Shown here: positions 3,142 through 8,815 of the stretch, piece by piece
How positions within the stretch are numbered: position 1 is the stretch's first letter
How the letters are laid out: each line of letters opens with the position of its first letter
Assembly: GCA_021828635.1 (NCBI GenBank)
Contig: JAJZEJ010000578.1
Span: 1 to 15,932, forward strand
Reading direction: 5' to 3'
DNA length: 15,932 bases
Source of the DNA: Chloroflexota bacterium
GTDB taxonomy: Bacteria > Chloroflexota > Ktedonobacteria > Ktedonobacterales > Ktedonobacteraceae
The notes under the pieces: generated by a model
The model's input: the letters and a program-made list of their open reading frames with translations, nothing else
The model's database searches: none
Told to the model about the DNA's origin: nothing
Translations under genes and position numbers: made by a program

Positions 3142-3369
3142 ATGACAGCGGTCTATCACATCCGAGTGCAGGGGCATATAGATGCCGACTGGTCCGAGGA
3201 GTTCGAGGGCTTGACCATCATCCATCAGAGCGATGGGACCAGCCTGCTTTCCGGTGGGCTGACCGACCAGAGCGTCTTGCACGCGGTTTTGCTCAAGGTG
3301 CGCGACTTAGGTTTGCCCTTGCTCTCTCTCAATTGCATCGAGCGAGAGAAACCAGATCACTCCTTCTGA
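3142..3369 (+). CDS. Small conserved-looking hypothetical protein (75 aa)
   Basis: A 75-residue soluble protein beginning MTAVYHIRVQGHIDADWSEE and ending in a polar tail. The ATG at 3142 is chosen over an in-frame ATG at 3052 because AAGGAGGG lies directly upstream (3132-3139) and the extra 30 residues look random and polar. The body has a compact pattern: a strand (YHIRVQGHI), a W-S-E-E-F-E-G-L motif, a strand with G-T-S-L-L-S-G, then a helix ending DLGLPLLSLN. This resembles small uncharacterised proteins I recall as frequent in Ktedonobacteria, often near LuxR-type genes, but no domain name is claimed. No transmembrane segment, signal peptide or metal motif is visible. It sits about 250 bases after the LuxR gene and about 210 bases before the P450. 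Confidence 0.72.
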   Translation: MTAVYHIRVQGHIDADWSEEFEGLTIIHQSDGTSLLSGGLTDQSVLHAVLLKVRDLGLPLLSLNCIEREKPDHSF

Positions 3370-3578: not shown

Positions 3579-4790
3579 ATGCAACAGAGAACCACAGATG
3601 AGAGGCTCAATCCCTTTCCTCGCTATCAATTCATGCGTGAAACCAACCCGGTCTATTTTGACCCACAGTATCACTTCTGGCAAGTTTGCCGCTATGATGA
3701 TGTCGCACGGGTACTCTCTGAGTATACATCGTTCTCTTCGGAGATGGGAGGTGTTCGTTTCTCCTTAGACTTTGAAGGGAACCAGGGAGGCGGAAACCCC
3801 GCAGAAGGCCAGGGAGACGATCCGATGAGTTCAAGCATGTTTAATATGGATCCTCCACGACATCGACAATTACGGAACCTCGTGACGCAGGCATTTACTC
3901 CTCGTAGTATAGCTCAGCTATCAGGACGCATTACGACCATCGCTAACACCCTGTTGGATCAGGTTGTTGCCACAGGACACATGGATAGTATTGATGATCT
4001 GGCGTATCCACTTCCTGTGATCGTGATAGCGGAAATGCTAGGAATTCCACAGGAAGATCGTGAACAATTCAAGCTCTGGTCTGATGCCGTCGTCGGTGCG
4101 AGCGAATCTGGAAATGGCAATCCACAGGCAGAAATGAGTAACTACTTCCTCGACATGATTCAGCAACGCAGTCGAGAGCGAAAAGATGATCTCATGAGTG
4201 CCTTGTTAGACGCTCAGATTGATGGACAGCATCTCAATCAGCGAGAATTCCTGGGCTTTTGTATCCTCCTTCTAGTTGCCGGAAATGAAACAACCACCAA
4301 TCTGATTGGGAATGCACTGCTCTGCTTCGATGAGCATCCTGAGGTCATGGAGCAATTACGAGCTGAACCGGAGTTACTCCCAGGAGCTATTGAAGAGGTA
4401 TTACGATATCGTTCTCCCGTTCAATTTATGTACCGGAGAGTCGTAGCTGATATGACTCTCCGAGATTCGCACCTACGAGCGAATCAAATGGTGCTGGCCT
4501 TGATCGGTTCAGCAAACCATGATGAAACCCAGTTTCCCGATCCAGAGAGATTCGATATTCGCAGAACCCCCAATCGGCATATTGCCTTTGGACAGGGCAT
4601 TCATTTTTGTCTTGGAGCACCATTGGCCCGTCTGGAAGCCAAAATTGCACTCACGCTCCTCTTAGAACGCTTCGATGACATTCAGCGAGTGCGGAGTGTT
4701 CCACTGGAGGCGACCGGTGCGGATTTCGCGTATGGAGTCAAGCACCTCCCGATGACATTCCGAGAGAGAGTGAAGTCAAGAGGAGAATAA
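3579..4790 (+). CDS. Cytochrome P450 (bacterial soluble class)
   Basis: A 403-residue soluble haem monooxygenase that would hydroxylate or otherwise oxidise a small organic substrate using electrons from a ferredoxin partner. All hallmarks are visible: the C-helix region DPPRHRQLRNLV (91-102), the I-helix oxygen-activation motif AGNETT (234-239), the K-helix ExxR (E273 to R276), and the haem-ligand loop FGQGIHFCLG (337-346) with axial Cys344. Length is normal for bacterial CYPs. No N-terminal membrane anchor and no fused reductase are present, and no ferredoxin gene is seen nearby. The B-C loop carries a glycine-rich stretch (about 67-83), a region that usually shapes substrate access. The ATG follows AGAAAGG by about 8 bases. 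The next gene starts 34 bases after the stop, suggesting cotranscription. The coding sequence appears somewhat richer in A/T than its neighbours, which may hint at separate ancestry. Substrate unknown. Confidence 0.96.
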   Translation: MQQRTTDERLNPFPRYQFMRETNPVYFDPQYHFWQVCRYDDVARVLSEYTSFSSEMGGVRFSLDFEGNQGGGNPAEGQGDDPMSSSMFNMDPPRHRQLRNLVTQAFTPRSIAQLSGRITTIANTLLDQVVATGHMDSIDDLAYPLPVIVIAEMLGIPQEDREQFKLWSDAVVGASESGNGNPQAEMSNYFLDMIQQRSRERKDDLMSALLDAQIDGQHLNQREFLGFCILLLVAGNETTTNLIGNALLCFDEHPEVMEQLRAEPELLPGAIEEVLRYRSPVQFMYRRVVADMTLRDSHLRANQMVLALIGSANHDETQFPDPERFDIRRTPNRHIAFGQGIHFCLGAPLARLEAKIALTLLLERFDDIQRVRSVPLEATGADFAYGVKHLPMTFRERVKSRGE

Positions 4791-4824
4791 TAGACGTTAT
4801 TCCGCTGAAAGGAACCCAACTATC

Positions 4825-6345
4825 ATGAGCGAAGTAATAAACAGTGTAAATAGTTCCCCTCACTCCACCTCGACATCTCTGCACGACGTGGAACAAGCAT
4901 TCCGGCAAAACTACCCGAGCTATGAGAGTACCTCCTTACTCGATGAACTGCGTGCCACAGAATACAGTCGTCTGGACAAGCATGGGCATATCTACCTCGA
5001 CTATACCGGTGGTGGCCTTTACGCCGAGAGCCAGCTCCGTGAGCATATGGAACTGCTGCACAACAACGTCTTTGGCAACCCACACTCCCTCAATCCAACC
5101 TCGCGAGCCGCGACTGCACTGGTCGAACATGCGCGTGCTTTTGTACTCGAGTTTTTTCGCGCCTCACCCGACGAATATGCAGTTATCTTCACCTCTAATG
5201 CCAGCAACGCGCTCAAGTTGCTCGGCGAGTCCTATCCCTTTCAACCCGGTGGTCAGTTCCTGCTCCTCTTCGATAACCACAACTCCGTCAATGGCATCCG
5301 CGAATTTGTCCGTGCCAGAGGTGCCACATATACCTACCTGCCCATCACAGCTCCAGAACTACGGGCCGAGGAATCCCATCTCTTCTCATTTTTAGAGATG
5401 AACAAAGAAGGCCCCCATCATCTGTTTGCCTATCCTGCCCAATCCAATTTCACAGGGGTGCAGTATCCCCTCGAATGGATCGCAGAGGCGCAGGCCAGGG
5501 GATGGGATGTACTCCTCGATGGGGCTGCCTTCGTCCCCACCAACCGCCTCGACTTGAGTAGATGGCACCCCGATTTTGTGCCTATTTCATTCTACAAAAT
5601 GTTTGGCTACCCCACAGGAATAGGTTGCCTGCTTGCACGCAAAGCCGCCCTCACTAAATTGCACCGTCCCTGGTTTGCCGGCGGGACCGTCTGGGGTAGC
5701 TCCGTGCAAGGCGATGGACACGTCATGCTCGAAGGTGGAGAAGCCTTTGAGGATGGAACCGTGGACTACCTCAACCTCCCAGCCGTAGAAATCGGCCTGA
5801 AGCATCTCAACACGATTGGCATAGAGACTATTCACGAGCGCATCATGTGTTTGACTGCCTGGCTGCTCGACGCACTCCTCTCTCTGCATCACAGCAATGG
5901 AACACCACTGGTTCAGATCTACGGGCCGTGCAACGTTGCGATGCGCGGAGGGACCATCGCACTCAATTTCCTTACCCCGAACGGATCGATCATTGATGAG
6001 CGTGTGGTTGAACAAAGAGCGAGTAGCTTCACGCTCTCTCTGCGTGCAGGCTGCTTCTGTAACCCCGGTGCTGGCGAAGCTGCTTTCCAGATTTCTCAAG
6101 AAAAACTCCGCAACATCTTTCGCAGCGAGTCGAACGAAATCCTTCCGAAGCTCTTTAAGGGCGAAGAAGGCATGACCTGGGATCAATTTCTTGCAGACCT
6201 CGGTATGCAGAGTGGCGGTGCTGTTCGAGTTTCGCTTGGCCTCGCAACCAACTTTGCCGATGTGTACCACTTCACTCAATTCGCACAAACCTTCCTGGAT
6301 ACCATTCCTACCGAAACCAATTTGGCTCCCCGGATGCATTGTTAA
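4825..6345 (+). CDS. Class V PLP-dependent enzyme, molybdenum-cofactor-sulfurase-like
   Basis: A 506-residue fold-type I PLP enzyme of aminotransferase class V, the group that includes cysteine desulfurases. Evidence: YLDYTGGGLYAES near the start (58-69), TSNASNALKLLG (123-134), a DNHNSVNG segment (150-157) with a His expected to stack on PLP, and the lysine motif SFYKMFGYPTG (255-265) with K258 the likely Schiff-base residue. Further on come LRAGCFCNPGAG (407-418) and a C-terminal GGAVRVSLGLATNFADVYHF block. The SFYK and CFCNPG motifs are those of the N-terminal half of Moco sulfurases (MOCOS/ABA3). The central Cys412 matches the cysteine thought to carry persulfide there, while the third Cys of the eukaryotic motif is Gly417. 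The MOSC domain of true Moco sulfurases is absent. It could be a cysteine desulfurase or a C-S lyase. An AAAGGA lies 11 bases before the ATG. Confidence 0.9.
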   Translation: MSEVINSVNSSPHSTSTSLHDVEQAFRQNYPSYESTSLLDELRATEYSRLDKHGHIYLDYTGGGLYAESQLREHMELLHNNVFGNPHSLNPTSRAATALVEHARAFVLEFFRASPDEYAVIFTSNASNALKLLGESYPFQPGGQFLLLFDNHNSVNGIREFVRARGATYTYLPITAPELRAEESHLFSFLEMNKEGPHHLFAYPAQSNFTGVQYPLEWIAEAQARGWDVLLDGAAFVPTNRLDLSRWHPDFVPISFYKMFGYPTGIGCLLARKAALTKLHRPWFAGGTVWGSSVQGDGHVMLEGGEAFEDGTVDYLNLPAVEIGLKHLNTIGIETIHERIMCLTAWLLDALLSLHHSNGTPLVQIYGPCNVAMRGGTIALNFLTPNGSIIDERVVEQRASSFTLSLRAGCFCNPGAGEAAFQISQEKLRNIFRSESNEILPKLFKGEEGMTWDQFLADLGMQSGGAVRVSLGLATNFADVYHFTQFAQTFLDTIPTETNLAPRMHC

Positions 6346-6399
6346 GTATTAATTCAGCCTTTTTTATGAAGGAACTGGCAGAGAGAAAAGAGACCATCT

Positions 6400-7611
6400 A
6401 TGAACAATTCTTCTTCACAACAGGACCAGTTACGTATCCTTGGTGTGTTTGCCCATCCCGACGACGAGTCCTTTTGTGCAGGGGGTACGTTTGCTAAGTA
6501 TATCGTCAGTGGGGCAGAGGTGATGGTCGTGTCTGCAACGCGAGGGGAGGCCGGGCAAATTCGCAGCCCGCATGTCGCCACGCGCCGGACGCTTGGGGCG
6601 GTACGTGAACAGGAACTACATCAGGCCTGCCAGCAACTCGGCGTTCAGCAGGCGATCTGTCTGGATTATCGGGACGGGACGCTCAAGGACGTTGACCAGG
6701 AAGCACTTATCACCCAGGTGGCAGAACGTATCCGTACCTTTCGTCCCGATGTGGTCATCACCTTCGGGCCGGATGGTGGCTACGGTCACCCTGATCATAT
6801 CGCCATTAGTGCCGCAACCACCGCTGCCTGTCTAAGGAGCGGCGAAGAAACCCAATTTCCCGAACAACTTGCGGCTGGCCTCTCGCCTCATCAGCCAGCA
6901 AGACTGTATTACAGCTATTTCCCCCCCAAACGCCAGTTGCTGCTTCAACAGTTGGTACAATGGCTCGTACAGGCTGAGAAGCGATTTCGTGGAACCCTGG
7001 ATTTTGCCTACGCGCTGTTGCTTCTCTGTGAGGAAGCGACCTTGTTGCGCTATAGCAACGATCATTTTGATATCAACTGGTTCCCAGCTGACTTCCTGAT
7101 CATCGAGCAAGGCGAGGCTGCCAACAGCCTGTACTTAATCCTGTCAGGAACAGTGGATGTCATTCACGAAGAAGTTGATGGAACGCTGCAGGTGCTGGCG
7201 CGACTGGAACCTGGAGCCTTCTTTGGCGAAGAGGGGATTGCTCATAAGAAGCCCCGCAATGCACACGTGGTAGCTGCCGAGAACGTGACCTGCCTGATCT
7301 TCTCCCCAAGTACCCCGACGGCATTTCTGGGACGAGGAGAGGAGGCTCATATTAGCGGATTCGCAGGAGTGAATGGACAAGATGAGTCATACGGGATGGG
7401 AGCTACGACGTATCTTGATGTCGGCCCCTATACGCAGCAAAAGATTGCGGCAATCGCTGCTCATCGTTCGCAATATGCGGTCGAAGCAGACACGTTTCCA
7501 CTGCCGATCTTGCAGGAACTGATGGGGCAAGAATACTTTGTCCGTGTCTTTCCCCCCCACGAGATCGAAACCGAGTTATTCCCATCGCTTCCTGCTGTTT
7601 CTCAGATCTAA
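6400..7611 (+). CDS. PIG-L (LmbE-like) deacetylase with inserted cyclic-nucleotide-binding domain
   Basis: A 403-residue predicted zinc-dependent N-deacetylase of the PIG-L/LmbE/MshB family with a CNB domain embedded in it. The N-terminal part has the zinc motif AHPDDE (18-23) and GYGHPDH (127-133). The C-terminal end (about 338-386: LDVGPYTQQKIAAIAAHRSQ, then ...EYFVRVF) is the normal last segment of the PIG-L fold. Between them about 150 residues are extra: a helical linker (about 175-220) and a CNB beta-roll (about 225-310: FLIIEQGEAANSLYLILSG, then GAFFGEEG and R286 in the position of the phosphate-binding arginine). The catalytic domain is therefore interrupted rather than fused end to end, as would fit allosteric control by cAMP, cGMP or a similar ligand. 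The phosphate-binding cassette is less canonical than in the next gene (KKPRNAHV instead of R-T-A-T). It starts 54 bases after the PLP enzyme, with a purine-rich GAGAAAAGAGA ribosome-binding region. Confidence 0.92.
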   Translation: MNNSSSQQDQLRILGVFAHPDDESFCAGGTFAKYIVSGAEVMVVSATRGEAGQIRSPHVATRRTLGAVREQELHQACQQLGVQQAICLDYRDGTLKDVDQEALITQVAERIRTFRPDVVITFGPDGGYGHPDHIAISAATTAACLRSGEETQFPEQLAAGLSPHQPARLYYSYFPPKRQLLLQQLVQWLVQAEKRFRGTLDFAYALLLLCEEATLLRYSNDHFDINWFPADFLIIEQGEAANSLYLILSGTVDVIHEEVDGTLQVLARLEPGAFFGEEGIAHKKPRNAHVVAAENVTCLIFSPSTPTAFLGRGEEAHISGFAGVNGQDESYGMGATTYLDVGPYTQQKIAAIAAHRSQYAVEADTFPLPILQELMGQEYFVRVFPPHEIETELFPSLPAVSQI

Positions 7612-7759
7612 CACTCGTGAAAATGGTCAGCAGAACGCAGTGACAGGCAACGACGTTCCGGCCCGCATATCTTTGACTGCGCCGGTGTGAGTCTTGAGCA
7701 GTCTCTATTTCTCAGGACTTTCCCTTGCCAGAAAAAAGCTGAAGAGGAGAAAAAAACCG

Positions 7760-8815
7760 ATGAGTTCCGATTCTTACGCCTATGAGCAATTGGCCCATCA
7801 ACGTCTCTCAGACGGAACTCCAGGTGCGGTCTGCGAAATTCTGCCCGTGACATTGGAGTCGAACCAGGTGGTCTTGCTTCGTCGTCCTACAGACAGCCAG
7901 GCGCAATCCTGGCTTGTCCCACATCAACCAGACAAACATCCCAACGAAGCTGTACTCCAGCACCTGGCAGCATTCTTTGGCGAGGTCTTTGAACCGCATA
8001 CGTCTATTGTTCACTCAACCTCCTGGCGCTACGAATGCCAGCCAGGGAGAGTTATCCTCACCTACTTGGTTGTGCTGCCTCAACGGCCCTGGCTACGCCA
8101 TTGGATGGAGACCGGGCGTATTCTCTTTGAGTATGTAGGAGCTATCCAAAAGGTACAAGGGGACAACCTCCATCCCCCTGAAAAAATGAAGATGGACGAT
8201 GTGCTTGCCCATGCCCTTGATCACCTGGCCCTCCTGAGTCGTGACGACAGGAGCATCCAGACGGTACTCACGCCTGAATGGATAGACGTGCTTGGACCGC
8301 GACTTCCAAAACCGGCCGGTTTTGTTGGATTTGTGCTGAGTCAGCCTCTCGCTTTTCAGGATGCACATGCAAACGCCGAGAAGGTTCAATTCGTCGCCGA
8401 TCAGATTATTTTTCGTCAAAGCGACCCGGCAGATAAGCTCTATATCATTACCAGAGGCCAGGTCGATGTCTTGCGATTGAATAAGAGGAACGGCAGGGAA
8501 ATACATGTAGCACGGCTGAAGGAGGGACAGTACTTTGGAGAAATTGGAGTGCGAGGCCACACCGAACGCACAGCCACCGTTCGGGCAGTGACTCCAGTGG
8601 AGTGTCTGGCACTGAACCATAAGGTAGTCGCGTCACTGCTGGCAGCTTCAAGGGAGGCGTACAATGACATGGATAGAGTGCTGCGCCGTCGCATTATGGA
8701 ACTTGGTGTACTTGAGGACACGGTGATCGAAAATTCGTTAGATGCCGACTTGAATACCGTCATAGAGACGCGCATGATCCGCGATCAGCTCAAAGTACTC
8801 GAAGGGATGATATAA
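7760..8815 (+). CDS. Nudix-like/CNB two-domain protein
   Basis: A 351-residue protein with a C-terminal cyclic-nucleotide-binding domain and an N-terminal domain of uncertain family. The CNB domain (about 208-300) is canonical: FVADQIIFRQSDPADKLYII, TRGQVDVL, then the phosphate-binding cassette YFGEIGV (258-264) with R270-T-A-T. It is followed by helices but no helix-turn-helix, so it is not a Crp/Fnr-type regulator. The N-terminus (about 18-110) reads like a Nudix fold (GAVCEILPV, VVLLRRP, SWLVP, then a helix near EAVLQHLAAFFGEVF), but the catalytic REXXEE core of the Nudix box is absent, so hydrolase activity is doubtful. Residues 145-190 form a helical connector. ATG at 7760 is preferred over an upstream in-frame TTG (7694) because AAGAGGAG lies 10 bases before it. 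It may sense a nucleotide signal for the cluster. Role unknown. Confidence 0.85.
   Translation: MSSDSYAYEQLAHQRLSDGTPGAVCEILPVTLESNQVVLLRRPTDSQAQSWLVPHQPDKHPNEAVLQHLAAFFGEVFEPHTSIVHSTSWRYECQPGRVILTYLVVLPQRPWLRHWMETGRILFEYVGAIQKVQGDNLHPPEKMKMDDVLAHALDHLALLSRDDRSIQTVLTPEWIDVLGPRLPKPAGFVGFVLSQPLAFQDAHANAEKVQFVADQIIFRQSDPADKLYIITRGQVDVLRLNKRNGREIHVARLKEGQYFGEIGVRGHTERTATVRAVTPVECLALNHKVVASLLAASREAYNDMDRVLRRRIMELGVLEDTVIENSLDADLNTVIETRMIRDQLKVLEGMI

Follow-up and report, generated by a model that had tools for sequence, protein, structure and literature searches.

Transcription factors are the best-known bacterial receptors of cAMP and cGMP, according to the part of PMC10127613 drawn on here. Bacterial enzymes gated by a cyclic-nucleotide-binding (CNB) domain are also already known, namely MtKat and Bd1971, as described in the portions of PMC5861322 and PMC12750041 that we used, and the LmbE-like superfamily takes its name from LmbE (PMC5518657, in the part used). 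Here we describe a run of four genes (3579-8815) in a stretch of Chloroflexota DNA of 15,932 nucleotides (contig JAJZEJ010000578.1), the whole of which is called the window. The genes encode a cytochrome P450, a class V pyridoxal-phosphate (PLP) enzyme, a PIG-L (LmbE-like) deacetylase/amidase with an internal CNB domain (PIG-L-CNB) and a Nudix-fold protein that ends in a CNB domain of its own (Nudix-CNB). An earlier note on this DNA had taken CNB domains to sit normally in transcription factors, kinases or channels, a premise that MtKat and Bd1971 make too narrow. It is the PIG-L-CNB architecture that is unreported in the literature searched. Among the matches listed, some of them judged by title, there was no paper on a CNB domain joined to PIG-L/LmbE; no text was found in which CNB, cysteine desulfurase, Chloroflexi and P450 come together; and searches for Nudix with CNB or Ktedonobacter gave none on the Nudix-CNB architecture by the titles checked. 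The earlier note knew of no named system with this gene set.

Results

PIG-L-CNB and the class V PLP enzyme

All four genes are intact, lie on the + strand and are separated by gaps of 34, 54 and 148 bp, so that the consecutive arrangement proposed earlier was confirmed, and the gene identities were borne out by Pfam domains and models. The PIG-L domain of PIG-L-CNB scored 129.0 bits against a Pfam cut-off of 28.2, and both metal-site motifs, AHPDD and HPDH, are present. Across 61 sequences His19, Asp21, Asp22, Tyr128, His130, Asp132 and His133 are invariant. The predicted structure is a complete two-lobe MshB-like PIG-L fold, and it places the CNB insertion between the catalytic core and the C-terminal lobe. 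The CNB domain (PF00027) was over its cut-off of 27.5 in both CNB proteins (65.7 and 72.2 bits). In both proteins the phosphate-binding cassette retains its Glu and Arg, residues taken to serve in cyclic-nucleotide binding; among the 61 close homologues of PIG-L-CNB, Glu277 is kept in 58 and Arg286 in 52.

The class V PLP enzyme carries a cysteine-desulfurase/molybdenum cofactor (Moco) sulfurase NifS-like domain (Pfam Aminotran_5), and among PDB sequences it comes closest to cysteine desulfurases. Judged by its motif, Lys258 in SFYKMFG is the probable PLP lysine. The sequence RAGCFCNPGA begins at residue 407, and the Cys loop RxGC[FY]CNxG, presumably the Moco-sulfurase motif, is present in all 120 of the 120 best homologues. 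A C-terminal MOSC domain is absent from the 506 residues, Aminotran_5 being the only Pfam match at E up to 1. The enzyme lies far below all NCBIfam cut-offs, the best score among SufS/CsdA/IscS/NifS being 102.4 of 475.1 bits (SufS family).

Recurrence of the gene set

Twenty-two PIG-L-CNB loci other than the window were compared, 14 on contigs of named organisms (L001-L014) and eight from genome searches (G011, G012, G018, G019, G020, G192, G371, G541). These are distant relatives, the nearest PIG-L-CNB homologues (up to 92%) having been left out; L001-L014 are among the matches listed with general PIG-L patterns, and closer relatives may be missed. Several contigs are short, and since L012, L013 and L088 are short or end at the PIG-L-CNB gene, absence of neighbours there is weak evidence. 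For most genomes in the Chloroflexota and actinobacterial searches, at most 3-4 candidates each were scored. PIG-L-CNB was found in 9 of 400 Chloroflexota genomes (E 1e-70) and 2 of 396 actinobacterial genomes; the order of G192 gave it in one of 16 genomes, G192 itself, and thus no further locus.

The earlier note had proposed that the four families be checked for co-inheritance in gene neighbourhoods, and here its expectation failed. The four-gene set, a P450 adjoining PIG-L-CNB and a full Nudix-CNB relative near it were each found in 0 of the 22 loci (L002 has a P450 3-4 kb off, on the other strand), and none of nine Chloroflexota PLP loci (L133-L139, L143, L144) has PIG-L-CNB or a P450 nearby. 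In L137 a PIG-L gene without CNB lies about 7 kb from the PLP gene. A conserved four-gene pathway is therefore not supported.

Co-occurrence held up in part, for a single pair. The PLP gene is adjacent to PIG-L-CNB on the same strand in two of the 22 loci, with opposite gene orders: PIG-L-CNB comes first in L004 (Flexivirga endophytica), and the PLP gene in L127 (G192, Chloroflexota). For six genomes with 5,000 genes each, the naive chance of meeting such adjacency in two is about 2e-6. The PLP enzyme occurs in 43 of 400 Chloroflexota genomes (E 1e-120) and together with PIG-L-CNB in five (Fisher p 0.001, kinship uncorrected). The two genes are unlinked in four of those five (G002, G011, G012, G020), and in four of the six relatives holding both overall. 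A looser PLP search (E 1e-25) of PIG-L-CNB genomes was positive in 2 of 16, G003 and G192, and supersedes one without a positive control (0 of 9); a search of 248 actinobacterial genomes at E 1e-120 missed the positive G003 (split match, best E 1.4e-106) and was left unused.

Other neighbours of PIG-L-CNB differ between loci. In G541 the gene is flanked on one side by a pyruvate-dehydrogenase-type TPP (thiamine diphosphate) enzyme and on the other by a phosphopantetheinyl transferase; ThiF and a nonribosomal peptide synthetase (NRPS) of C-A-T-TE layout lie further out, and all of these genes are on one strand; the NRPS-containing locus is L132 2527-13965, from an actinobacterial genome. In Kribbella (L003 11175-12149) and Geodermatophilus (L008 11189-12202) the next gene downstream, on the other strand, encodes a PALP-type PLP enzyme.

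A cyclase-like neighbour in actinobacteria

A DUF2652 gene stands beside or within 2 kb of PIG-L-CNB in 6 of the 22 loci, which are 6 of the 11 actinobacterial ones, and all six keep the cassette Glu and Arg in PIG-L-CNB, as do 16 of the 22 distant loci overall. As a control, among the other listed PIG-L loci without a CNB domain found at the PIG-L gene, a DUF2652 relative was seen at 1 of 66 (L066); the resulting Fisher p of 0.0008 overstates the link, because none of the control loci carries an actinobacterial title and a single family, that of Blastococcus and Geodermatophilus, accounts for five of the six positives.

Two Asp residues are invariant in seven DUF2652 sequences and were taken as metal ligands. 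A profile of these seven gave no cyclase in the PDB, only two chance-level hits, and Pfam and NCBIfam returned DUF2652 alone and nothing, respectively. The cyclase reading of DUF2652 comes from PMC4886424 and not from our own searches: the part of that paper used here describes the family as computationally recognised as class III cyclase-like and names CNB-domain proteins among its gene neighbours.

The Nudix-CNB protein

The Nudix fold is present in the predicted model of Nudix-CNB; the CNB part of that model is of low confidence, few CNB rows being present in the underlying alignment. The Nudix box (GX5EX7REUXEEXGU) is absent from the protein and from 120 listed homologues. An active Nudix hydrolase was rejected on this ground, and the Nudix-fold domain is probably a non-catalytic sensor. 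Relatives of the HSTSWRY Nudix-fold domain (7760-8302) also carry PIG-L, AHSA1, deazaflavin-nitroreductase or PF14306 in the Pfam listing (P0224, P0190, P0167, P0150).

In one homologue, P0149 (a 195-aa ORF on a 152-kb contig), a PIG-L N-terminus is continued by the middle part of the Nudix-CNB protein; it may be the product of a deletion between adjacent genes, and an assembly error is also possible. The probable home class of the window is that of G001, a genome titled Ktedonobacterales. A search of 47 genomes from this class gave partial Nudix-CNB matches, three by the Nudix part (G021, G024, G031) and one by the CNB part. The stretches around the three Nudix parts (L140-L142, L141 being under 5 kb) gave no PLP or PIG-L-CNB match.

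The start of the Nudix-CNB gene was placed at ATG 7760 and not at the listed TTG 7694, which is dispensable because GAGGAG precedes the ATG and the 98% homologue P0121 is also 351 aa long.

P450 and surroundings

The P450 scored 133.6 bits with Pfam PF00067 and shows the motifs AGNETT, EVLR and FGQGIHFCLGA, the last of which supplies the heme-Cys loop. No redox partner was found among ten window ORFs scanned with Pfam. Upstream of it lie a 75-aa ORF (3142-3369) and then a MalT/LuxR-type regulator (101-2893), which lies on the same strand and is a candidate regulator of the four-gene set. The small ORF has AGGAGG ahead of its ATG and shares 52% identity over 63 residues with the N-terminal part of P0172, in which this part precedes the same Nudix-fold domain as that of Nudix-CNB. 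Downstream of the Nudix-CNB gene is a lactate permease on the opposite strand.

Scanning for promoters and terminators found 3 where 4.3 were expected and 8 where 5.4 were expected, so operon limits are not established. No RNA family reached its gathering score in the window. PIG-L-CNB had no match to plasmids at 1e-30; in viral contigs three stretches fitted a pattern and none was confirmed. The PHROGs comparison gave a single unnamed family of PIG-L type. Several close homologues, where named by source, are Ktedonobacteraceae.

Table 1. Positions of the four genes and their domains in the window, and of DUF2652 genes at other PIG-L-CNB loci
Feature	Position	Strand	Remarks
Cytochrome P450	3579..4790	+	403 aa
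Class V PLP enzyme	4825..6345	+	506 aa
PIG-L-CNB	6400..7611	+	403 aa
PIG-L Rossmann-like catalytic core	6421..6924	+	residues 8-175
Inserted CNB domain of PIG-L-CNB	6994..7320	+	residues about 199-307
Phosphate-binding cassette of PIG-L CNB	7225..7269	+	residues 276-290, Glu277 and Arg286
PIG-L C-terminal lobe after CNB insertion	7405..7551	+	residues 336-384, strand-helix-helix-strand
Nudix-CNB	7760..8815	+	351 aa
Nudix-fold domain without Nudix box	7811..8302	+	residues 18-181, HSTSWRY at 85-91
CNB domain of Nudix-CNB	8384..8644	+	residues 209-295
Cassette of Nudix-CNB CNB domain	8537-8581	+	Glu261, Arg270-Thr271
DUF2652 gene, Kribbella	L003 9179-9910	same as PIG-L-CNB	about 60 bp upstream
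DUF2652 gene, Blastococcus	L005 11164-11856	same as PIG-L-CNB	directly downstream
DUF2652 gene, Blastococcus	L006 11126-11839	other	directly downstream
DUF2652 gene, Blastococcus	L010 11126-11845	other	directly downstream
DUF2652 gene, Geodermatophilus	L008 13016-13702	other	within 2 kb
DUF2652 gene, Geodermatophilus	L011 12740-13468	other	within 2 kb

Discussion

We propose, at a probability of about 0.5, that PIG-L-CNB is a zinc-type PIG-L/LmbE amidohydrolase whose two lobes are linked by a CRP/PKA-type CNB domain, that it is gated by a cAMP-like nucleotide, and that it and the PLP enzyme together process a conjugate of sugar or thiol type. The computed support is the gene content, the predicted fold, the insertion point, the catalytic and pocket residues, the PLP pairing and the actinobacterial DUF2652 neighbour; the ligand, the gating, the substrate, the order of the steps and a common pathway of all four genes are what we infer. 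The arrangement suggests that a second messenger acts directly on a metabolic step and switches it. Of the cyclic-nucleotide-gated enzymes imagined in the earlier note, the built-in CNB domain, the pocket residues kept in the close family and the cyclase-like neighbour in actinobacteria thus stand, and the conserved four-gene system does not.

According to this proposal, Glu277/Arg286 of the PIG-L CNB domain would bind a 3',5'-cyclic nucleotide, with cAMP the likeliest candidate. Binding would shift this domain and thereby change the placement of the C-terminal lobe, which gives the substrate cavity its shape; an N-acyl conjugate of sugar or thiol type would then begin or cease to be hydrolysed. 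The amine set free would pass to the desulfurase-type PLP enzyme encoded next to it, whose simplest target would be an S-cysteinyl or cysteine group. In this Ktedonobacteraceae-like lineage they are accompanied by the P450 and by Nudix-CNB, the second CNB protein, whose Nudix-fold sensor is probably non-catalytic. It is more doubtful that a dedicated divergent cyclase (DUF2652 in actinobacteria) switches PIG-L through the hinge CNB domain, with the conjugate pathway answering the messenger without transcription and the Nudix-fold sensor and second CNB domain of the window reading the messenger together with a metabolite.

Several observations weigh against the proposed gating and pairing. PIG-L-CNB reaches no thiol-pathway NCBIfam cut-off (MshB 112.9 of 224.35, Mca 112.9 of 277.15, BshB1 88.3 of 182.5 and BshB2 115.6 of 195.25 bits). 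In the class of G001, where 47 genomes yielded six PIG-L-CNB proteins, not one of the six has kept the cassette Arg, and in three the Glu is gone as well; these are the six of the 22 distant loci without both residues. The CNB domain can therefore persist without the classical pocket. The same class holds a full Nudix-CNB relative in 0 of 47 genomes, and the PLP gene is absent from 14 of the 20 other PIG-L-CNB genomes at the thresholds used. The DUF2652 link is skewed towards Blastococcus/Geodermatophilus, as set out above, and no DUF2652 was seen near Chloroflexota PIG-L-CNB copies or in the window at E 1e-3. Lastly, the cyclase family PF00211 was present in all 13 of the relatives examined and, within that class, in 46 of 47 genomes, so its presence says little: messenger supply for PIG-L-CNB is plausible and is not specific. 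The group with the Arg lost (L009, L088, L128-L131) possibly binds a different ligand or none.

The four genes could instead be chance neighbours without a shared pathway, only PIG-L-CNB being allosteric and the P450 and Nudix-CNB unrelated to it; the failure of the set to recur, the four genomes with an unlinked PLP gene and the nine PLP loci all speak for this. We nonetheless regard it as rather unlikely, since the PLP/PIG-L-CNB adjacency is met in two more genomes from two phyla, the four genes share one strand with gaps of 34-148 bp, and P0149 fuses PIG-L to Nudix-CNB, if it is not an assembly error. A structural role for the CNB domains, or a ligand other than a cyclic nucleotide, in either case without second-messenger gating, would fit the loss of the Arg throughout the relatives in the class of G001 and its replacement in 9 of the 61 close homologues; this reading appears quite improbable given that both residues are kept in most close homologues and in 16 of the 22 distant loci, the six with a cyclase-like neighbour included.

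The genes may instead form a sulfur-trafficking or detoxification set, in which the P450 would make an electrophile, a thiol cofactor would conjugate it, the product would be cleaved by PIG-L in the manner of Mca/LmbE, and removal or mobilisation of the sulfur would fall to the PLP enzyme, the CNB domains only tuning the process. BshB2, Mca and MshB are indeed the best-scoring models for the PIG-L protein, and in lincomycin biosynthesis LmbE and then LmbF act on mycothiol-derived conjugates, as the part of PMC5518657 used here relates. These model scores, however, all fall below their cut-offs, and the PLP enzyme has a desulfurase-type Cys loop, whereas LmbF is described there as beta-eliminating; we consider such a set unlikely. 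If gating of the amidohydrolase by a cAMP-like nucleotide is true, it would offer a testable case of direct metabolic control by a second messenger, with the sensor inserted at a catalytic hinge, and orphan DUF2652 proteins would gain a candidate partner.

Comparison with known systems

Among the regulators, NrtR and AraR are DNA-binding transcription factors of Nudix type, whereas the Nudix-fold domain of the window precedes a CNB domain. Family 2B encapsulin carries a CNB domain and matches two window proteins weakly, over that domain only (NF041163, 25 and 37.9 against 400 bits), and was rejected; in agreement with the earlier note, no shell-protein match was found among the window proteins scanned. 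With the eukaryotic-type Moco sulfurase the window enzyme shares the desulfurase-like PLP domain and the Cys loop but not MOSC. The LmbE/LmbF pair, a hydrolase followed by a PLP enzyme acting on an S-cysteinyl group, is formally like the PIG-L/PLP pair; the likeness is drawn between the steps as described, and CNB is not mentioned in the part of PMC5518657 used.

The window PIG-L protein shares with MshB, Mca and BshB of the LmbE-like superfamily the whole fold, the zinc-site and acid-base residues and the two-lobe layout, and is set apart from them by the CNB domain, some 110 residues long, that separates its core from its C-terminal lobe. The order of elements in this lobe is the same as in TT1542, as far as PMC4101496 was used, and the main text of that superfamily review, to the same extent, has "cyclic nucleotide" 0 times. 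The nearest parallels in principle are Bd1971, a cAMP-binding EAL phosphodiesterase whose CNB domain is N-terminal and whose enzyme is unrelated to PIG-L (PMC12750041, in part), and the acetyltransferases MtKat and MsKat, likewise bacterial enzymes with an in-chain CNB domain and directly activated by cAMP (PMC5861322, in part). In the acetyltransferases the CNB domain is placed at the N-terminus of the GNAT domain, whereas in the window it is inserted within the hydrolase itself.
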